From the IMG/VR virus record IMGVR_UViG_3300028025_006000, positions 1 through 34,275 of that record: DNA of 34,275 nt; one strand, written 5' to 3'. Positions 3,895-33,550 of the stretch are shown here, piece after piece. The DNA is from a virus. Positions within the stretch are counted from its first letter, which is position 1. Every line of letters begins with the position of its first letter. The notes beneath the pieces are model-generated. The model searched no databases, was not told the origin of the DNA, and saw only the letters and a program-made list of their open reading frames with translations. A program made the translations under genes and the position numbers.

Positions 3895-5225
3895 TGTTTA
3901 AGTCTGAAAACCGTGCAATAAGTTTTCAAACCGTTTGGGGTAGCGGTGGCGACCTACAAACCATGACGGAATCGGGTGTGCTGGTAAACGGCGACTCAGC
4001 GTTCAACATCACCGCGTTCTTTTCAGCGGTAAGCCTAATCAGCGACACCATTTCTACTTTGCCTGTTGACGCGTTCATCCGCTTTGACGGCGAGCGCAGA
4101 CCGTTCCGACCAAAGCCGGTGTGGATCGACCAACCAGACGTGGACATGACTCGGCAAGCGCACTATGGCCAGTTGGTTACTTCGTTGCTGGTGTTTGGTA
4201 ATTCTTATACACGCGTCTTTCGCGATAACAATGGCGAAATAGTAAACCTTGTCGTGTTGGATCCGAACACTGTGGAAGTTACACGTTCGGCTATCGGCAG
4301 AAAGATTTTCAAAGTTGAAGGCGAGAAGCAACCTTTGACTAGCGACGAGATTGTTCACATCGTTGATTTGGCTATGCCTGGTTCGTTGGTTGGTTTGAGC
4401 CGTGTAGACAAGTTGAAAGAGTCGCTTGGTATCGCTTTCGCGTTGCAGGCGTTCGCTGGCAGGTTCTTCAGTAACGGTTTGTCAGCCGACGTCATCATCG
4501 AAGCCCCACCAAGCATGACCAATAGTCAAGCAAAAGATTTGATTGATGGTTTCAATAACCGTCACCGCGGTTTCCGTAAAGCACACAAAGCAGGTATTTT
4601 GACTGGCGGTGCGGTAGCTAAGAACTTGAGCCTTGACCCTGAGAAGTCGCAGGTACTAGAGTCGCGCCGTTTCGTTGTTGAAGAAATAGCTCGGGCGTTC
4701 AACATCCCTTTGCATATGTTGGGCGTTCCAGGAACCAACACTTACAGCAGTGTCGAACAGAACGGTTTGCAGTTCATTAGCCACACGCTTCGACCAATAC
4801 TTGAAAAGATTGAATGGGCTTATAGTCGCCTCATCCAAACCGACACCGCGTTCATCAAATTCAACTTCAACGCTTTGTTACGTGGCGATCTACAGAGCCG
4901 TGCTACCGCGTACAGCATCCTCACCCAAGCCGGTATCTTCAGCGTCAACCAAGCGTTAGCGTTTGAGGACTTGCCAGCCGTTGAAGGTGGCAACGCACAC
5001 CGTGTACCACTAGCTAACATCGACTTGACTGCTGCTTCGCTGACCGCCGACGAAATGAAGATTGGCATGGCGCAGAAACTTATCAACGCAGGCTTTGACC
5101 CAGCAGGAGTTTTGGCAGCACTTGGTTTGCCTGCTGTCGCTCACACCGGTTTGCCAACTACACAGTTGCAGCCGGTTGCACAGGTGGATCCGAATAACCC
5201 TCAAAGTGTTTATGGAGTGAACTAA
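3894..5225 (+). CDS. Portal protein, HK97 type
   Basis: Forms the dodecameric ring at the capsid vertex through which DNA enters and leaves and to which the tail attaches. The 443-residue protein has the family features: an N-terminal AFFSAVSLISDTISTLP segment, a YGQLVTSLLVFGNSYTRVFRD block, then DEIVHI, a GLSRVDKLKESLGIA helix and LHMLGVPGTNTYSSVEQ. A proline-rich C-terminal tail follows. It sits directly after terminase and before the head genes, the standard order. TAATG coupling to the upstream small gene fixes the start. Confidence 0.93.
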   Translation: MFKSENRAISFQTVWGSGGDLQTMTESGVLVNGDSAFNITAFFSAVSLISDTISTLPVDAFIRFDGERRPFRPKPVWIDQPDVDMTRQAHYGQLVTSLLVFGNSYTRVFRDNNGEIVNLVVLDPNTVEVTRSAIGRKIFKVEGEKQPLTSDEIVHIVDLAMPGSLVGLSRVDKLKESLGIAFALQAFAGRFFSNGLSADVIIEAPPSMTNSQAKDLIDGFNNRHRGFRKAHKAGILTGGAVAKNLSLDPEKSQVLESRRFVVEEIARAFNIPLHMLGVPGTNTYSSVEQNGLQFISHTLRPILEKIEWAYSRLIQTDTAFIKFNFNALLRGDLQSRATAYSILTQAGIFSVNQALAFEDLPAVEGGNAHRVPLANIDLTAASLTADEMKIGMAQKLINAGFDPAGVLAALGLPAVAHTGLPTTQLQPVAQVDPNNPQSVYGVN

Positions 5226-5566: not shown

Positions 5567-7815
5567 TGTCTGACTCTGTTATTCAAGTTACAGAATCAAA
5601 TACCACGGTTTCCGTGGATGAAACACTAGCTAACGTTGCTGTCACAGAATCAATTGTGAATGTTGATGTCACAGAATCTGTTGTCAATCTAAACGTCACA
5701 GAAACTTTGGCAAACCTGGTTGTAACCGAAACTTTTGTGAACGTTGACGTGACCGAAAGTTCAGCGGTTATAGCCACTGCGGTTTCAGGGCCACAAGGTT
5801 CTAGTTATGAAGTGAACGCCCCAATGCTGTCGGTGGTTCGAAACGCTACCGGTGCCACGCTTACTAAAGGCACTGTTGTTTATACTTCGGGTGCTAACGG
5901 CGACCACGTTCAAGTCACTAAAGCAATAGCGACAGGCGACCTTACATCGGCGCGAACTATGGGTTTTATTTATGCTGACATCCCAAATGGTGAGGATGGC
6001 TATGTAGCTACTTCGGGTTACCTTTTGGGTTTGAACACTAACGGGTTAACTGTTGGATCGATACTTTATCTTTCACCAACAACCGCTGGGGCTTGGACAA
6101 CTACCAAACCCGTTGCGCCTTACCACATGGTTTATTTAGGTGTCGTTACTCGCTCAAATGCCAACAACGGAAGTGTCTATATTCACATCCAAAACGGTTT
6201 TGAACTCGGGGAACTCCACGATGTCAGCGTCACGGATCGCGCCAACGGTTATGTTTTGGCTTGGGATGAAGCCACAAGTCTTTACAAGTTTGTTGCACCA
6301 CAAAGTGGGCCACAGGGTGCTACCGGTGCTCAAGGTATTCAGGGTGAGCAAGGGCCTCAAGGTATTCAGGGAATACAAGGCGAGCAAGGTATTCAAGGCA
6401 TACAAGGTGAAAAAGGCGACAAGGGTGACACAGGCGATACAGGTGCTACAGGTGCCGCTGGTGATAAATACCACACCACTTCAACTACGACTCTAACTAT
6501 TGCCAATTCGGGAACGGTCAACCTTACCACCGCTGATTTGGGTTTGGATTATTCAACAGCACAAACCGTAATCATTGCAGCTAATGGCACGGCGCATATG
6601 CACGGTGAGGTTGTGTCCTATAACCAATCAACAGGTGCTCTATCGGTTGCTCTAAATAATTCCACTGGCTCTGGCACATATTCTTCATGGGAAGTAAACC
6701 TAGATGGTGCGGTTGGTGCTAAAGGTGACAAGGGCGACACTGGTGCAACGGGTGCGACAGGCGCAACAGGCGCACAGGGTATTCAGGGCATTCAGGGTAT
6801 TCAGGGTGTTGCTGGTGCGGATGGCACAAACGGCACAAACGCAACGATCGCTGTTGGTACGACGACTACGGGTGCTGCAGGCACTTCCGCTTCGGTAAAT
6901 AACTCTGGCACATCCACGGCAGCGGTTCTAAACTTCACAATCCCAAAAGGCGACACTGGTGCTACCGGTTCACAAGGTGCTTCAGGTGTCGTCACCGTAG
7001 CTAGCCCCATAACAAACTCTGGTACTTCTAGTGCTGCTCAACTTGGTTTCGACGCAACCGGTTTTGTAAAAACTTCCGACACAGGCACAGTAACAAACAC
7101 CATGCTGGCTGGCTCAATTCAAAACGCCAAACTAGTAAACTCTTCTGTTACTGTAAACGGCTCAAGTATTTCTTTGGGCAACTCGGCAACAGTAACTGCA
7201 AACACCCCAAATACCTTTATTATCACTGGCGACAGTGGTACTACCGAAGGCACAAACAAGTACACCTTCGATGGATCGGCTGGCAAGACACTCAATTTTG
7301 TTTCAGGTACAGGTGTGACGATTGCCGAAACCGCTGGCACATTTACTTTCAATAATGGCGGAGTAACAACCGTAAATGGTTCAAGCGGTGCGGTAACTGT
7401 TCAACCAACAATAACTACTTCGCAAACGGCTCTCACAGCCGATGTCACAATGACTACTGCTAACACACTTTATGCTGGCCCTACAGTTTCTTTGACAGCA
7501 GGTACATGGCTTGTCATGGGTGGTATTACAGTTTCTTCCACTGCTAACAACGCTATGCGTGTAACTACTCGTATCGATAACAGCAGCACTACTGTTTACG
7601 CTTCGGGTGAAGCATCCGTACCTGCAATGGGTGCATCTACGCTTGGTTATGTAAGACAAAGTTTGCAGGCAATAGTCACCCTTGCTTCAACAACAACAGT
7701 GCGCGTTGCTGCATATTCAACACTGGCTTCGTCTGTCATAAAGGCTACACCTGGTGACAACTCAACAAACGCCACCAACACCGCAACAATTATTACAGCG
7801 ATAAGGATTGCTTAA
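5566..7815 (+). CDS. Collagen-like fibre protein with N-terminal VTE repeats
   Basis: A 749-residue fibre. Residues 1 to about 70 hold imperfect ten-residue repeats built on V-T-E-(S/T)-x-x-x-V-x-V, probably a beta-helix or trimeric beta stalk. A folded domain follows (about 75-245). Collagen-type Gly-X-Y repeats occupy about 248-300, with further blocks near 385-420 and 463-475. The C-terminal half is Thr/Ser/Asn/Gly-rich, ends in a compact beta domain and looks like a receptor- or surface-binding tip. It lies between portal and prohead protease rather than with the tail genes, so a head fibre is as likely as a tail fibre. Start and end share bases with both neighbours. Confidence 0.8.
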   Translation: MSDSVIQVTESNTTVSVDETLANVAVTESIVNVDVTESVVNLNVTETLANLVVTETFVNVDVTESSAVIATAVSGPQGSSYEVNAPMLSVVRNATGATLTKGTVVYTSGANGDHVQVTKAIATGDLTSARTMGFIYADIPNGEDGYVATSGYLLGLNTNGLTVGSILYLSPTTAGAWTTTKPVAPYHMVYLGVVTRSNANNGSVYIHIQNGFELGELHDVSVTDRANGYVLAWDEATSLYKFVAPQSGPQGATGAQGIQGEQGPQGIQGIQGEQGIQGIQGEKGDKGDTGDTGATGAAGDKYHTTSTTTLTIANSGTVNLTTADLGLDYSTAQTVIIAANGTAHMHGEVVSYNQSTGALSVALNNSTGSGTYSSWEVNLDGAVGAKGDKGDTGATGATGATGAQGIQGIQGIQGVAGADGTNGTNATIAVGTTTTGAAGTSASVNNSGTSTAAVLNFTIPKGDTGATGSQGASGVVTVASPITNSGTSSAAQLGFDATGFVKTSDTGTVTNTMLAGSIQNAKLVNSSVTVNGSSISLGNSATVTANTPNTFIITGDSGTTEGTNKYTFDGSAGKTLNFVSGTGVTIAETAGTFTFNNGGVTTVNGSSGAVTVQPTITTSQTALTADVTMTTANTLYAGPTVSLTAGTWLVMGGITVSSTANNAMRVTTRIDNSSTTVYASGEASVPAMGASTLGYVRQSLQAIVTLASTTTVRVAAYSTLASSVIKATPGDNSTNATNTATIITAIRIA

Positions 7816-9500
7816 TGCCTTACTACATTTCAAACAAAAACCCTGACTGTGCTGGTTGGGCAGTTGTAAAAGCCGATGGTGAACTTGTCGCTTGCCAAAA
7901 GACTAAACAGGATGCCATTGATAACGCTCTAGCTATTAGTTTGAGTGAAGACGAAGAATACATGGGTGAGTTAGGTAAAGACGATTCTGAGAACCGCGCC
8001 ACCTACACTCCGCCAGCAGGTGTTCGCAACGCAGCCAAGCGCGCTTTAGAGTGGATCGCTGAAGGTAAGGCTGGCTCAGGCTTCACAGATGTTGGTCGAC
8101 GCAGGGCAAGCCAACTAGCTAACGGCGAACCAGTGTCCGATGTGACTATCGCCCGTATGCGTTCATACTTTGCACGGCACGAGGTTGACAAGCAAGCAAC
8201 CGGTTTTAGTAGCGGTGAAGACGGCTACCCGTCACCTGGTCGTGTGGCTTGGGATGCTTGGGGTGGCGACGCAGGACAAACATGGTCTAATACTTTTGCT
8301 GAGAACCGCGCCGCTGGCGACAAGATAATCATTTGCGACATTGACGGGACAATGCTGAACGGATCGAACCGCAACAATAAAGTCTGGGATTACGTTGAAA
8401 GTCTTGAAGGGTTACTGTTCATGGTTACCGGTCGCCCCGAAAGTGACAGGGCGAACACCGTGCAAGACCTTGCAGACGCTGACGTACGGTACAGCCGTCT
8501 AATCATGAACCCTGGTTCTACCGCCGACAGTGTCGACTATAAAAGGGAAACCGCTAAACGGTTACTTGAAAACTATGAAGTAGTCGTAGCTATCGAAAAC
8601 AACCCTGACGCGTTACGCGCCTATCGTTCGCTTGGCATCAACGCAAAGTCGCCAGCCAGCCTGCCAACCGTAAATGAAGACAACGGAAATGAACGTGACG
8701 TGGAAAGCAATAAACTAGATGCAGGAGTATTTATGACTGAGAACAGATCTAAGTGGCTACCGGTTGCTTACGCGTTGATAGCTCGCGTTGAGGGTGGCAC
8801 ACCTGAAATGCGCAACTTGGGTGGGGCGGAACACCGCACCTACACTTTCAGTGACATCGAAGTTCGCGAAGAAGGCGACGGCATGATGTTCACGGGTTAC
8901 GCTGCACGGTTCAACGAACCTTCACACCCGTTGCCTTTCATTGAAGTCATTGCACCTGGTGCGTTCAAACGTTCGTTGCAGTCAAGAAGCGAAATCAAAC
9001 TGTTGTGGAACCATGACGCTGGCGAACCGTTGGCTTCTTTGCGTGGTGGATCATTGCGTCTAAGCGAAGATGAACTTGGTTTGAAAGTTGAAGCGCAACT
9101 AGCTAACACAAACCGTGGGCGCGATACTGCCGAACTTATCCGTTCAAAAGTAATTGACTCAATGAGTTTTGGTTTCAACGTAATCAAAGACTCGTGGTCT
9201 AACGACGGATCGCAACGCACCCTGCAAGATGTTCGCTTGTTTGAAACAAGCATTGTTAGCTTTCCAGCGTACGAGTCGACAGCCGGTTCGCTCCAAGTAC
9301 GTTCTATAAGCGCAGAAGCTTTGGCGGACTCTTTAGCGAAGTTGGAGTCGGGTGAAAATTTAGACGCCGATCAGGCTAACTTGTTGCGTGAGGTTGTTGA
9401 CAAGTTGAGTGGCACCCCAGCGGAAGTTGTTCCGGAAGAACCTGTTGGCGACCTTGCCTTAGCTAAAGCCAAACTGTTTCTTTTGCAGAAAGCGGTTTAG
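7815..9500 (+). CDS. HAD phosphatase-prohead protease fusion protein
   Basis: A 561-residue protein with at least three parts. Residues 1-150 hold a small N-terminal segment plus a TPPAGVRNAAKRALEW...GRRRASQLANG helical region. Residues about 170-290 form a HAD-type domain with DIDGT (175-179) and VTGRPESDR (near 203-211), the layout of phosphatases such as the 3'-phosphatase half of polynucleotide kinase. Residues about 335-510 are a U35-type HK97 prohead protease with GYAARFNEPSHPL, APGAFKRSL, LLWNHD (catalytic His near 400) and SMSFGF (catalytic Ser near 449-451). The protease matures the capsid by cutting scaffold or delta domains. An in-frame ATG at 8733 with AGGAG upstream could yield a protease-only product of 255 residues. 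Confidence 0.85.
   Translation: MPYYISNKNPDCAGWAVVKADGELVACQKTKQDAIDNALAISLSEDEEYMGELGKDDSENRATYTPPAGVRNAAKRALEWIAEGKAGSGFTDVGRRRASQLANGEPVSDVTIARMRSYFARHEVDKQATGFSSGEDGYPSPGRVAWDAWGGDAGQTWSNTFAENRAAGDKIIICDIDGTMLNGSNRNNKVWDYVESLEGLLFMVTGRPESDRANTVQDLADADVRYSRLIMNPGSTADSVDYKRETAKRLLENYEVVVAIENNPDALRAYRSLGINAKSPASLPTVNEDNGNERDVESNKLDAGVFMTENRSKWLPVAYALIARVEGGTPEMRNLGGAEHRTYTFSDIEVREEGDGMMFTGYAARFNEPSHPLPFIEVIAPGAFKRSLQSRSEIKLLWNHDAGEPLASLRGGSLRLSEDELGLKVEAQLANTNRGRDTAELIRSKVIDSMSFGFNVIKDSWSNDGSQRTLQDVRLFETSIVSFPAYESTAGSLQVRSISAEALADSLAKLESGENLDADQANLLREVVDKLSGTPAEVVPEEPVGDLALAKAKLFLLQKAV
8721..8735 (+). promoter_or_regulatory. Internal ribosome binding site and ATG for a protease-only product
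   Basis: gcAGGAGtatttATG lies inside the fusion gene and in its frame (codon 307), exactly between the HAD and protease domains. The spacing and strength match real starts elsewhere in the window. It suggests two products from one gene, as in nested protease/scaffold genes of other phages. Confidence 0.55.
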
Positions 9501-9658: not shown

Positions 9659-9860
9659 GTCGTTTTCTTTACCCCACACGGTTTATCCCTTTCCCGTGTG
9701 GGGTTTCTTTTTGCCGTTTCAAAATTGACCCTGTTTTTGAAATGTAACGAATTACTTTCCGTCAGTTAGACTTTTAGAAGGTTCAGCGTGGGCGCGACCT
9801 ATCAACTGTTCTGAGTGGGCTCGGCAGTTCAATCCCCAACAATCTATTTAGGAGACACCT
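9659..9860. other. Intergenic leader before the major capsid gene
   Basis: A 202-base gap, long for this genome. It holds the terminator at 9671-9712 and then about 140 bases of leader ending in AGGAGA before ATG 9861. A weak promoter-like TTGACC is at about 9726, but no convincing -10 is spaced from it. A separate promoter for the highly expressed capsid gene is expected here but not proven. Confidence 0.4.
9671..9712 (+). terminator. Rho-independent terminator
   Basis: An 11-base perfect stem (ACCCCACACGG at 9671-9681 and CCGTGTGGGGT at 9694-9704) with a 12-base loop, followed by ttctttttg. It separates the protease unit from the major capsid gene. Confidence 0.9.
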
Positions 9861-17106: not shown

Positions 17107-18512
17107 TGGCTGGTGGACTTAATCTGCCTATTACGACCATGTTCAACGACAAGGGTCTAAAACAGGCACAGATGGCGTTTGGCAAGTTCGGTGGTGCTAT
17201 AAAAGGTATTTTAGGTGCAGCAGGTTTGTCGCTTGGTGTTGGGGCGTTAGTCAAGGGTATAAACGATTTGACTAAGGCTGCCGTTGAAGACCAAAAGTCT
17301 CAGGCGTTGCTAGCTAATCAGTTGAAGAATACTGTGCAGGCTTCGGATGCGGTTACGGCTTCAGTTGAAGACCAAATAACAAAAATGAGTTTAGTTTCCA
17401 GCGTTGCCGACGACAAGATTCGACCAGCGTATGCTTCACTAATCCGGTCGACTCGTTCTGTGAAGGATGCAACCAGGCTAACCACTTTGGCTTTAGACAT
17501 CAGTGCTGCGACCGGTAAGGATTTGACAGCGGTTTCAATTGCGTTGGGTAAGGCATATAACGGATCCACAACTGCTCTAAGCAAACTCGGCATCAAGGTA
17601 AAAGACACTAAACGCCCGTTTGATGAACTTGAGAAGGCTTTTGCTGGGTCTGCTGAAACGGCTGCAAAGAATGATCCGTACCAGCGTCTGGCAGTTATTT
17701 TTGATGAGTTGAAAGAAACCATTGGTAAGGTTTTTATTCCTGCTTTGAACAGCATTGCTGATTGGTTTACTAACAACTTTGATGGCATAAAAACGTTTTT
17801 TGACGATGCTTTCAAATCTAAAGCGTTCGGTGATTTGGCGGATGTTGGTAAACGACTTTATGACGAAATCCTTGTGCCTTTGGGTAAGTGGTTTATGTCG
17901 AAGGATGTCCAGGAAGCCATTTCAGAGGTGGCTATTGGTATTGCTGTTTTTGCTCAGGGTGCATTGGATATAGCTAGTTCGGGTTTTGGTCAGTTCATTA
18001 AAACTATTACAGGTGATGTGATTGTCTCTGGTATGAAAAGCCTTGCTCAAGCCTTCACCCAAATTGGTGACGCGTTGAGAATTATCAGTGGTAAGTCGGC
18101 TATTTTTGAAATCTTGACCGGTGCGCCTACTGCGGTTTTACCTTCAACTCAAAAGAACGCTCAAGCAGATTTGAAATCGTTGCTGGGCGTGACCGCTGGG
18201 CTTAACGCTTCAAACCCAATCTTGTCTTACATTTTGCGTTTCATTCAAGGCAAACTCCCAGCGTATGCCAGCGGTGGCATTGTTCCGGCAACGCCTGGTG
18301 GACAACTTTCTCTTTTGGGTGAGGGTGGACAAGCGGAAGCGGTTATTCCGTTGGATCGACTAGACGCCATGATGCGCCCAGCCAGCACAGGCGGTGCCGT
18401 GTACCAGATTACTGTGAACGCTGGGGTTGGCGACAAGGCCGCTATAGGTAAAGCCGTTGTTGACGCTGTGAAGGCGTATGAGCGACAGTCGGGTGCAGGT
18501 TGGCGACAGTAA
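17106..18512 (+). CDS. Tape measure protein (short)
   Basis: Sets tail length and helps DNA ejection. It has 468 residues, short for the family, which implies a short tail. The N-terminal half is helical (FGKFGGAIKGILGAAGLSLG; then a VEDQKSQALLANQLK coiled region; and SIALGKAYNGSTTALSKLGI, a typical tape measure element). Hydrophobic helices follow (ISEVAIGIAVFAQGALDIA). The C-terminus has ASGGIVPATPGGQLSLLGEG and AEAVIPLDR, the common end motif in actinophage tape measure proteins. It overlaps the minor tail gene by 13 bases. Confidence 0.9.
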   Translation: MAGGLNLPITTMFNDKGLKQAQMAFGKFGGAIKGILGAAGLSLGVGALVKGINDLTKAAVEDQKSQALLANQLKNTVQASDAVTASVEDQITKMSLVSSVADDKIRPAYASLIRSTRSVKDATRLTTLALDISAATGKDLTAVSIALGKAYNGSTTALSKLGIKVKDTKRPFDELEKAFAGSAETAAKNDPYQRLAVIFDELKETIGKVFIPALNSIADWFTNNFDGIKTFFDDAFKSKAFGDLADVGKRLYDEILVPLGKWFMSKDVQEAISEVAIGIAVFAQGALDIASSGFGQFIKTITGDVIVSGMKSLAQAFTQIGDALRIISGKSAIFEILTGAPTAVLPSTQKNAQADLKSLLGVTAGLNASNPILSYILRFIQGKLPAYASGGIVPATPGGQLSLLGEGGQAEAVIPLDRLDAMMRPASTGGAVYQITVNAGVGDKAAIGKAVVDAVKAYERQSGAGWRQ

Positions 18513-22564: not shown

Positions 22565-22579
22565 ACTAAAACTAACGAG

Positions 22580-22617
22580 ACCCCCAGAGCCACTACGCAG
22601 GCTTTTGGGGGTTTCTT
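22580..22617 (+). terminator. Rho-independent terminator at the end of the lysis cassette
   Basis: ACCCCCAGAGCC (22580-22591) pairs with GGCTTTTGGGGGT (about 22600-22612) with one imperfection, followed by ttctta. The stop codon of the reverse WhiB gene (22593) lies inside the loop, so the hairpin separates the convergent units. Confidence 0.85.
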
Positions 22618-22877
22618 AGTATTTGCTCACGTTCGATTGGTGTCGTGCCACCCCAAATGCCGTGCGTTTCTTTCGCAGCCAAAGCGTACGTTAGGCAGTC
22701 ATAAACAAGCGGACACTTTGAACACAGTTCTTTAGCTATTGGTTCGTTCCATTTGCGCAACTCAATGTTGATGCTTTCGTCAGTATCAAAAAGATGACCA
22801 TTACCGGTGCAAGGTATTGTTTGCTCGCTGGCTTCTCTAATCAAATCTTCATAAAGATGTAAAACTTTTTTATTCAC
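22593..22877 (-). CDS. WhiB-family iron-sulfur transcription regulator
   Basis: A 94-residue protein of the actinobacterial WhiB family, which binds a [4Fe-4S] cluster through four Cys and interacts with the housekeeping sigma factor. The Cys residues are at 23, 52, 55 and 61 (C-x28-C-x2-C-x5-C), in IPCTGNG and LCSKCPLVYDCLTYAL. The GIWGG motif is at 74-78, followed by a short basic tail. I chose GTG 22877 because AAAGGGAA precedes it and the family alignment starts nearby; longer in-frame starts run into the divergent promoter. Phage WhiB proteins such as WhiBTM4 can repress host whiB genes and alter septation or superinfection, a known precedent. Confidence 0.93.
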   Translation of the reverse strand: MNKKVLHLYEDLIREASEQTIPCTGNGHLFDTDESINIELRKWNEPIAKELCSKCPLVYDCLTYALAAKETHGIWGGTTPIEREQILRNPQKPA

Positions 22878-22887
22878 GTTGTTCCCT

Positions 22888-22915
22888 TTGTCGGTGGTAA
22901 TCATTACTGTATAAG
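22888..22915 (+). promoter_or_regulatory. Promoter with a dyad between -35 and -10, start of the replication region
   Basis: TTGTCG (22888-22893), 16 bases, then TATAAG (22910-22915). An 11-base dyad GTAAT-C-ATTAC (22897-22907) lies between the boxes, a likely operator. It sits in the 65-base gap between divergent genes (WhiB left, exonuclease right), so one regulator could control both. Confidence 0.6.
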
Positions 22916-22942
22916 TAAGTTCAAAGAAAGGGAACGATTTAG

Positions 22943-31481: not shown

Positions 31482-31713
31482 CGATTTGAACGACAGCAAC
31501 AAACTAGCTAAAAAAAATAGTATGCGATGTGCCATGTGCGAAATACTTTCCAGACTAACCGCCGACGAGCAGAAGGCTCTAAACGAGGCTCTAGCTAACC
31601 CTGATGCGTCTAAAGCAAACATTGCCCGTATCCTTACAAGTAATGGTTACAAAGTCTCACAGTCGTCTGTGACGCGCCATGCCCGAAGGGAATGTCTTGG
31701 CCTTAGCAGATGA
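31468..31713 (+). CDS. Small helix-turn-helix protein (81 aa)
   Basis: Has MRCAMCEILSRLTADEQKAL (a Cys pair and a helix), then ASKANIARILTSNGYKVSQS and SVTRHARREC. The segment IARILTSNGYKVSQSSVTRH reads as a helix-turn-helix, like those of small phage regulators or terminase-linked proteins. It overlaps the phosphoesterase gene by 35 bases. Confidence 0.65.
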   Translation: MGLLDDLNDSNKLAKKNSMRCAMCEILSRLTADEQKALNEALANPDASKANIARILTSNGYKVSQSSVTRHARRECLGLSR

Positions 31714-32851
31714 CCTGCTCCAAGTTGGATCGAAACCTGCACCGGCTGGTTGGCGACCAAGCGTTGAGTTTGATGAACTAGCAGGTGTTGGGGAAGCAAC
31801 CACGCAAGGGCTGGTGAGCGAACCAAACTTTGATGAGTTTCTGCGTACCGCAGGTTATGACCCTGAAGTGTATGAAGTGGTGGGGAACACTGTTCGCACA
31901 TCAAAATGGCAGCAACGCGAAGGTGGCGACTGGCTAACGTCATACCGGTTCACGTTTCGCATAAAAAACGCTGTCGTGGATTTGCCTTTGCTGTATTCGC
32001 AGGCTCGCAAACAGGTGAAGCCAGCGAAACCGCTGACAAGTAAAAAAGCCTTAGTTGTTTTATGGTCAGACTTGCAGGTGGGTAAAGTAGACGTTCACGG
32101 TGGAACGGCAGACCTGGTGGCGCGGTGCGAGGTGATGCGTGATCGGTTGAAAGCCGTGGTGAAACGTGAGAAACCAGACACCGTAGTATTTGCCGACTTG
32201 GGTGACACCGTTGAAAACTTTGGTAACGCTGCTAACCTGCAACAACTCCGAACGAATGACTTGAGCATTATGCAACAGGTCGATGTAGCTATAACGGAGG
32301 CGTGGCTAACCCTAGAAATGCTTTATAGCGTCGTACCGAACGTCGTGGTGGCGAGCGTTGGATCGAACCACTGCCAGTGGCGTGTGTCAAAACAAGCGGT
32401 GGGCAGACCAGGTGTTGACGATTGGGGCATTTTCATTTTGCACCAGATACGCAGGCTGGCCACTGTAAAAGAATACGGTTGGCGTTTCGTCGTACCAGCA
32501 GCAGAAGATGAAAGCGTCACGTTGGAAGTACACGGACACAAGATTGCGTTAGCTCACGGTCACCAAGCGAACAGACCCGAAGGCGTTGTGGGTTGGTGGC
32601 GCGGTCAACAGTTCGGTAGCCAACCAGCAGCACACGCAGACATTCTTTGCACAGGTCACTTCCACCATTTGCGTGTACAAGAGTGTGGCGCAAAACCTGA
32701 TGGGGGTTCACGGTTTTGGGTGCAGGCAGCAACCCTTGATAACGGATCGGGCTGGTTCCGTCGCACGTCAGGCGAGTCTGCTGTTCCTGGTTTGGTATGT
32801 TTCGTCTTGGAACAGGGTGTTGATTTCACGGGAAGCGTTTTGAAGTTATAA
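31679..32851 (+). CDS. Calcineurin-like metallophosphoesterase
   Basis: A 390-residue enzyme. After an N-terminal region of about 120 residues, the metallophosphatase motifs follow in order: LWSDLQVGK (D-x-Q in place of D-x-H, near residue 130), VVFADLGDTVEN (G-D near 174), VGSNHCQWR (N-H near 225), ALAHGHQ near 290 and CTGHFHHLR (G-H-x-H near 326-330). It should bind two metal ions and cleave phosphate esters. Such enzymes lie in many actinophage early regions with unknown substrate. It ends just before the structured RNA region. Confidence 0.85.
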   Translation: MPEGNVLALADDLLQVGSKPAPAGWRPSVEFDELAGVGEATTQGLVSEPNFDEFLRTAGYDPEVYEVVGNTVRTSKWQQREGGDWLTSYRFTFRIKNAVVDLPLLYSQARKQVKPAKPLTSKKALVVLWSDLQVGKVDVHGGTADLVARCEVMRDRLKAVVKREKPDTVVFADLGDTVENFGNAANLQQLRTNDLSIMQQVDVAITEAWLTLEMLYSVVPNVVVASVGSNHCQWRVSKQAVGRPGVDDWGIFILHQIRRLATVKEYGWRFVVPAAEDESVTLEVHGHKIALAHGHQANRPEGVVGWWRGQQFGSQPAAHADILCTGHFHHLRVQECGAKPDGGSRFWVQAATLDNGSGWFRRTSGESAVPGLVCFVLEQGVDFTGSVLKL

Positions 32852-32879
32852 GATAAGTTTGTGCTGCTTGGTTGGGTCG

Positions 32880-32947
32880 GTCAGTCGAACGAAGAAATTC
32901 GTTAGTGTACCGCCGGTGGCAAGCCAACGATAACTGACGAGGTTGGC
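32880..32947 (+). ncRNA. Predicted pseudoknot in the 5' part of the structured RNA
   Basis: GTCAGT (32880-32885) pairs with ACTGAC (32933-32938), while GCCAAC (32923-32928) pairs with GTTGGC (32942-32947). The ACTGAC strand lies in the loop of the second stem, giving a crossed pairing. Inside the first span a perfect hairpin AACGAA-GAAA-TTCGTT (32888-32903) is nested. Confidence 0.5.
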
Positions 32948-32988
32948 AAGGTGGTTTGGCTCTCCACGTAAACGAAACGAGCCACTAA

Positions 32989-33056
32989 GGGGTTGTGTGG
33001 TAACCGTAAGCACTACGGGTGAAGCCGCGTCAAACGGTGCAAATCCGACAACCCCA
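32989..33056 (+). ncRNA. tRNA-like cloverleaf unit 1 (degenerate)
   Basis: GGGGTTGT (32989-32996) pairs with ACAACCCC (33048-33055), an eight-base acceptor-like stem followed by A. Inside lie a three-base D-like stem (GTG...CAC), a short middle hairpin (CGG-GTGAAG-CCG) and a T-like arm (CGG-TGCAAAT-CCG) whose loop keeps the T54/A58 pattern. The stems are too short and the middle loop too small for a normal tRNA, and no anticodon can be assigned. Confidence 0.5.
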
Positions 33057-33059
33057 CTA

Positions 33060-33117
33060 TACGGACTGTCAATCCGTAGAGAGCCGTAAAAGGCTTGCCT
33101 GAATTGTAATGGTTCAG
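33060..33117 (+). ncRNA. Three consecutive hairpins between the tRNA-like units
   Basis: TACGGA-CTGTCAA-TCCGTA (33060-33078), AGCC-GTAAAA-GGCT (33082-33095) and CTGAA-TTGTAATGG-TTCAG (33099-33117). The first looks like a tRNA-Asp anticodon arm (GTC), but no matching acceptor stem surrounds it. They fill the space between the two tRNA-like units. Confidence 0.5.
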
Positions 33118-33123
33118 TGCTAA

Positions 33124-33203
33124 GGGGTTGCTATGGCTTCGTCAACGCTCCAAAACCGCTAGTCGGAAAGCGTTGCACTCGGGTTCGATTCCCGACAACT
33201 CCA
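33124..33203 (+). ncRNA. tRNA-like unit 2, tmRNA-end-like, with alanine identity
   Basis: GGGGTTG (33124-33130) pairs with CAACTCC (33196-33202), with a G3-U70 wobble and A as discriminator base, the identity set for alanyl-tRNA synthetase. The T-arm TCGGG-TTCGATT-CCCGA (33179-33195) is perfect. The D/anticodon arms are replaced by GGCTTCGTC (like the GGATTCGAC of tmRNA) and one long hairpin CAACGC...GCGTTG (33143-33148 with 33170-33175). No CCA is encoded, and there is no tag reading frame as in tmRNA. Confidence 0.6.
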
Positions 33204-33287
33204 CGGGGTAACCTCGGTAGATGAGTGTAAGAATACGGTCGCGCCGGATGACGCTGTGGCGGTCGCCCCACCTTGAAAGGGTCACAA

Positions 33288-33550
33288 TGCATGAAGCGTG
33301 GAGTTACCTACTAGCTACGCTCGGCATGACACAAATCTGGTTGACAGGCAAACGCATCAGAGCCGGTTGGATCGTCGGTGTAGCCACCTCAGTGTGTTGG
33401 GTAGCGTTCGCAACGGTTACCAAACAATATGGTTTTATTATCTCGGCAGCCTTTTTTGCCACACTCCACATTCGCAACTGGTTCGCATGGAAACCACAGA
33501 AAGAAACAAATGACGCTCACAACCAAAGACCTAGTCAACTCGAACTGTAA
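33288..33550 (+). CDS. Membrane protein (87 aa)
   Basis: ATG 33288 follows GAAAGGGTC. Hydrophobic segments SYLLATLGMTQIWL, WIVGVATSVCWVAFATV and GFIISAAFFATLHI suggest three membrane helices, with a charged C-terminal tail that starts KPQKETNDAHN. Start 33221 is rejected because it lies within the non-coding region and lacks a binding site. The pattern resembles small phage membrane proteins annotated as nicotinamide transporter-like, but that is weak. Confidence 0.65.

Follow-up and report, generated by a model that had tools for sequence, protein, structure and literature searches.

A message-less tmRNA in a viral contig, its phage relatives and a probable role as a decoy in host ribosome rescue

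AlaRS, EF-Tu and SmpB recognise tmRNA by way of its G3·U70 acceptor stem, D-loop, T-arm and P2. The acceptor with G3·U70, the D-loop, P2 and the T-arm are common to the canonical one-piece tmRNA (RF00023) and to the compact RNA described here, which in contrast lacks the message domain and the pseudoknots, approximately 290 positions in all. It is encoded in an IMG/VR viral contig of 34,275 nucleotides, analysed in full and referred to below as the window. A single phage, DS6A, has been reported to carry a tmRNA consisting of the tRNA-like domain only (TLD-only; Mao et al. 2009, cited in both PMC4131195 and PMC11915505), and, according to the same two sources, tmRNA in E. coli is strongly inhibited by a molecule similar to this RNA, perhaps through titration of SmpB; the inhibition is reported in PMC4131195 to occur whether or not the molecule can be charged. 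As far as the description of DS6A, a Mycobacterium phage, in these sources goes, its TLD-only ssrA and the window RNA are alike in being phage-borne, in containing little beyond the tRNA-like domain and in having no tag frame, although the window phage is of a different type, probably an actinophage and a relative of Pontimonas phage phiPsal1. A tag reading frame is likewise absent from the mitochondrial tmRNAs of jakobids and oomycetes and from the plastid tmRNAs of Mallomonadaceae (approximately 65 bp); unlike the window RNA, however, these are organellar, the mitochondrial genes are usually permuted, and they have been proposed to aid rescue. The TLD-only kind is already known, from one phage and some organelles. 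New with respect to the papers found are the number of viral relatives and their rarity in genomes, the covariation of the inner hairpin, the invariance of G3·U70 and the presence of a copy in a phage–host pair in culture.

The non-coding gap and its compact tmRNA

The largest non-coding gap of the window (32852–33287, 436 bases, no strand assigned) is flanked by a phosphoesterase/exonuclease gene (31679–32851, plus strand, PHROG 284) and, downstream of the RNA gene, by a gene for a PnuC-like short membrane protein (33288–33550, plus strand). The reading frame of the latter opens at 33221, but as its PHROG match starts at residue 24 the start is probably at 33288. An earlier reading of the sequence alone had singled out this gap as non-coding, which was borne out, and had described nearly all spaces in the genome as shorter than 100 bases, which applies roughly, although further gaps of 95–380 nt are present. 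Separately, a stretch of 378 nt without a plus-strand gene (22565–22942) is mostly covered by a minus-strand open reading frame of 118 aa and returned no Rfam match.

The density of stems across the gap had been taken to exceed chance. Folding of a 439-nt stretch as a single RNA gave z = -1.16, with 16 of 100 shuffles equally or more stable, and the argument from stem density therefore fails for the entire locus, even if the sub-regions 33060–33125 (z = -3.3, 0 of 200 shuffles) and 32986–33062 (z = -2.35, 3 of 200 shuffles) fold more stably. One large ornate RNA was thus rejected, since the fold of the whole locus is ordinary and no Rfam family except tmRNA was matched. GOLLD, ROOL and other large phage RNAs, which resemble this locus in being phage non-coding RNAs sometimes located near tRNAs, differ in that the gap has no single large conserved fold and gave no GOLLD or ROOL covariance-model match even at E up to 5. 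Nothing was found in support of a crossed (pseudoknot) pairing. What stands of the proposed structured RNA locus is a covarying RNA gene inside the gap. A BLAST search of the locus against isolate phages produced no real match, and the region contains no sigma-70-like promoter, a consensus that tells little for actinobacterial phages.

That RNA gene lies on the plus strand at 33124–33203. RF00023 matches 33124–33206 at 53.3 bits (gathering threshold 47), the sole gathering-level Rfam match in the whole window, so that the locus does belong to a known class; the sequence-only reading had found none to fit, while naming tmRNA among the candidates. The alignment runs from model position 1 to 374 with nearly all of the middle absent. 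The 80-nt gene has an acceptor stem GGGGUUG/CAACUCC with G3·U70, a stemless D-loop (CUAUGGCUUCGU), a 7-bp P2 (CAACGCU/AGCGUUG) and a T-arm (UCGGG-UUCGAUU-CCCGA), and ends with discriminator A followed by CGG, the CCA not being encoded. Between the strands of P2, approximately 20 nt with a small 3-bp inner hairpin (CCG-CUAGU-CGG) replace the tag frame and pseudoknots; neither a tag reading frame nor a pseudoknot domain is present in 33124–33203, nor is there room for one. No second tmRNA piece was found in the contig, and a permuted, two-piece tmRNA (RF04321) was rejected, as the 5' and 3' parts follow each other in this order on one RNA and the model scored 12.4 against 47 bits. ARAGORN reports 33124–33203 as neither tRNA nor tmRNA, and neither ARAGORN nor RF00005 recognises a cloverleaf with an anticodon arm. 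BLAST of the 80-nt gene against isolate phages returned nothing but fragments of ordinary tmRNAs and tRNAs, mostly their T-arms. Judged from its sequence, with a score of 81.5 bits against a model built for the family and the covariation described below, the gene almost certainly specifies a tmRNA of which the tRNA-like domain alone is left.

Two tRNA-like units had been proposed in the gap, of which 33124–33203 is genuine, whereas the other, 32989–33056 (plus strand), was matched by no tRNA or tmRNA model. In the latter, an acceptor-like 8-bp stem (GGGGUUGU/ACAACCCC) closes 68 nt and is followed by a CACUA end; it carries G3-C70 and a non-canonical T-loop, and the family model scores it weakly (9.2 bits, E 0.08). 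Given this score and the failure of ARAGORN to find any tRNA, the interpretation as two tRNAs was rejected. The stretch occupies the position at which contig L003 has its compact tmRNA, and may be a second tRNA-like unit that has decayed or diverged. A 42-nt element of two hairpins (33078–33119, plus strand; GAGCC-GUAAAA-GGCUU and CUGAA-UUGUAAUGG-UUCAG), which immediately precedes the tmRNA, is shared with L003 at 86% identity (score 54, shuffle maximum 29), where it is located just downstream of the compact tmRNA. The second hairpin differs between the two by two compensatory pairs (CUGAA/UUCAG vs CUUAG/CUGAG) around a constant loop UUGUAAUGG. No further copy was found in IMG/VR, and a candidate in L108 was rejected as a chance match. 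Adjoining the element is a 6-bp hairpin (UACGGA-CUGUCAA-UCCGUA, 33060–33078, plus strand), and in L003 the corresponding place relative to the element is taken by another 6-bp hairpin, unlike it in sequence. A likeness of the hairpin at 32950–32985 to L016 is not claimed, being borderline (equalled by 0 of 300 shuffles under one scoring scheme and by 2–3 of 300 under another), and a pattern scan for this hairpin identified, beyond L016, only chance matches in coding DNA. Outside these features, the gap comprises approximately 220 nt.

Viral relatives and covariation

A strict pattern of the compact form was scanned over IMG/VR and 84,980 prokaryotic species genomes, and matched 22 IMG/VR contigs as against a single contig among the genomes, the latter belonging to a metagenome-assembled genome labelled archaeon. 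With a looser pattern, the compact form was detected in at least 80 IMG/VR contigs. Among the matches listed, 64 distinct compact sequences of 74–92 nt were obtained, the window and the one genome match included. Together with the phiPsal1 copy, 64 of 65 compact forms reach at least 60 bits against the family model (the exception, L073, scores 43 bits), while isolate-phage records with full or permuted tmRNAs attain at most approximately 35 bits, Alone3 apart. CCA is encoded in 20 of the 65, and ARAGORN misses most of the genes. In Streptomyces phage Alone3 (OR725492.1, approximately 18155–18231; L109, 465–541), an unannotated RNA with G3·U70 lies in a tRNA array and scores 46 bits; it is probably a compact tmRNA, possibly decayed.

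The search pattern itself prescribed GGGG, the D- and T-loop motifs and a size limit, so that conservation of the two loop motifs is not independent evidence, and only the free positions count. Covariation across related phage contigs, suggested as a check by the earlier reading, proved strong: in an alignment fitted to the covariance model, which also includes two low-scoring tRNA-like matches that are not compact tmRNAs (L065 and L095), it amounted to 0.657, compared with 0.123 in shuffles and at most 0.09 with partners slid. Pairing is maintained in 95.8% of cells of this alignment, and changes on both sides are seen in 18 of 22 pairs, including all seven pairs of P2 and all three of the inner hairpin. 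A structure-blind MAFFT alignment of only the 64 sequences gave a covariation of 0.601 (0.120 in shuffles). Besides P2 and the inner hairpin, acceptor pairs 5 and 6 and the outer pairs of the T-stem covary, which indicates that the RNA, and with it the new inner hairpin, is under selection. Furthermore, G3·U70 is present in all 65 distinct sequences (phiPsal1 counted) even though position 70 was free in the pattern, and the neighbouring acceptor pairs 5 and 6 vary freely among the compact forms. The invariance of G3·U70 at an unconstrained position beside variable pairs implies selection for alanylation.

Pontimonas phage phiPsal1 (MG835450.1; L107), the nearest relative in culture, has the terminase most similar to that of the window (54.6% over 98%), and the exonucleases of the two are 53% identical. 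Its unannotated compact tmRNA (5569–5647, 54.6 bits), detected via Rfam and not via the pattern, is located between gene 008 and the major capsid gene, just upstream of the latter; it has G3·U70 and G4·U69, and a U-A pair replaces the usual G-C beside the T-loop. This kinship points to a likely host of the Pontimonas kind, i.e. an actinobacterium, for the window phage. With Pontimonas salivibrio CL-TW6 and phiPsal1, a phage and host in culture are available for testing the idea of a viral hold on ribosome rescue. In the window itself, a segment of approximately 20 nt in front of the major capsid gene (9778–9799, AGGTTCAGCGTGGGCGCGACC) resembles the corresponding phiPsal1 sequence, beside its compact tmRNA.

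Proposed function and rival explanations

All elements recognised by AlaRS, EF-Tu and SmpB are kept in the compact tmRNA, while the parts for tagging and release are missing. Host RNase P and 3' nucleases would excise the RNA from a polycistronic transcript, after which it would receive CCA and be charged with alanine; Ala-RNA·SmpB·EF-Tu might then enter stalled ribosomes, or the RNA might simply occupy SmpB. Lacking a resume codon, it would neither tag nor release the nascent chain, and would thus act as a competitive inhibitor of host trans-translation during infection. The retained recognition parts, the loss of the tag and the precedent of inhibition by a TLD-only RNA make inhibition of trans-translation the likeliest role, and the occurrence in dozens of viral contigs and almost no bacterial genomes probably reflects a viral decoy that blocks host ribosome rescue. 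On this analysis, the most likely role of the compact tmRNA is to mislead SmpB, EF-Tu and stalled ribosomes as an alanylated decoy. We consider it probable that the window RNA is a TLD-only tmRNA which becomes alanylated and competitively inhibits host trans-translation during infection, and an inhibitory role toward trans-translation as such is favoured to about the same degree. Counting against it, some phages carry full tmRNAs, and opposition to trans-translation is therefore not universal among phages. A pure SmpB sponge would not need charging; with the published inhibition being irrespective of charging, the invariance of G3·U70 suggests a role for charging in addition to SmpB titration.

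Charging would also be of use to a tag-less helper, whose alanylated domain would enter stalled ribosomes with SmpB and leave a factor of the ArfA/ArfB or RQC type to free the chain, a mode of action supposed for tag-less mitochondrial tmRNAs, so that ribosomes keep cycling. The persistence of these mitochondrial tmRNAs alongside SmpB (PMC11915505) agrees with such a helper. We nevertheless regard this explanation as unlikely: the single molecule of the TLD-only kind reported as tested, in the accounts cited above, inhibits tmRNA, and a phage release factor was not seen nearby in the window. Alternatively, the RNA could divert a host defence nuclease or a sensor of tRNA- or tmRNA-like elements, such as a tRNA-cleaving toxin or the SmpB-like domains found in CoCoNuT systems. 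SmpB-like domains do occur in predicted RNA-targeting defence systems (PMC11090510), and ARAGORN calls phage tRNA or tmRNA genes within 2 kb at 21 of 82 loci; the compact form, however, offers no anticodon to anticodon nucleases, and diversion of a defence system appears decidedly improbable.

Since the message part is gone and CCA is encoded in so few members, the RNA might be what is left of a full tmRNA acquired from a host, in decay and without function; yet decay is hard to reconcile with strong covariation, an invariant G3·U70 and a common inner motif over 65 diverged sequences, and covariation already contradicts it for the family as a whole, which leaves it very improbable for the window. 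It is scarcely credible that the gene is a copy of host ssrA serving an integrase as attP. Host ssrA is a common attB (PMC11915505, PMC10865867), but its 3' part would suffice for this purpose, whereas compensatory changes preserve the 5' acceptor strand as well as P2 and the inner hairpin; additionally, an integrase is absent among the 30 window proteins scanned, and the phiPsal1 copy departs from the usual G-C beside the T-loop.

The inhibition or takeover of ribosome rescue may be a common viral strategy, given at least 80 viral contigs with the compact form and the near absence of the strict pattern from 84,980 genomes. The broader proposition, that message-less, alanine-chargeable tmRNAs constitute a widespread, virus-specific family, all but missing from cellular genomes, which shuts down or rewires host rescue in many unrelated phages, and for which charging and the inner hairpin are needed beyond SmpB titration, is in our judgement evenly balanced.

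Gene neighbourhoods of the compact tmRNAs

The exonuclease family is encoded directly upstream on the same strand in eight loci (the window, L003, L025, L068, L092, L019, L079 and L098), which by appearance represent about five phage groups; shared descent may explain the link. In phiPsal1 and L024, an exonuclease gene is present and the compact tmRNA is located elsewhere. In L013, L018, L023, L060 and L075, a Pistol ribozyme on the same strand precedes the compact tmRNA by approximately 105–230 nt, and in L014 a hammerhead II ribozyme lies approximately 1.8 kb upstream. Contig L065 carries, approximately 500 nt from a compact tmRNA, a 68-nt tRNA-like RNA (4049–4116) that ARAGORN misses; it has G3·U70, a short D-arm and an anticodon-like loop in which UGC occurs, and is perhaps a truncated tRNA-Ala. 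Elsewhere in the window, the head maturation protease (7815–9500) is apparently a fusion protein that includes a polynucleotide-kinase-like segment (PHROG 415, residues 162–280).
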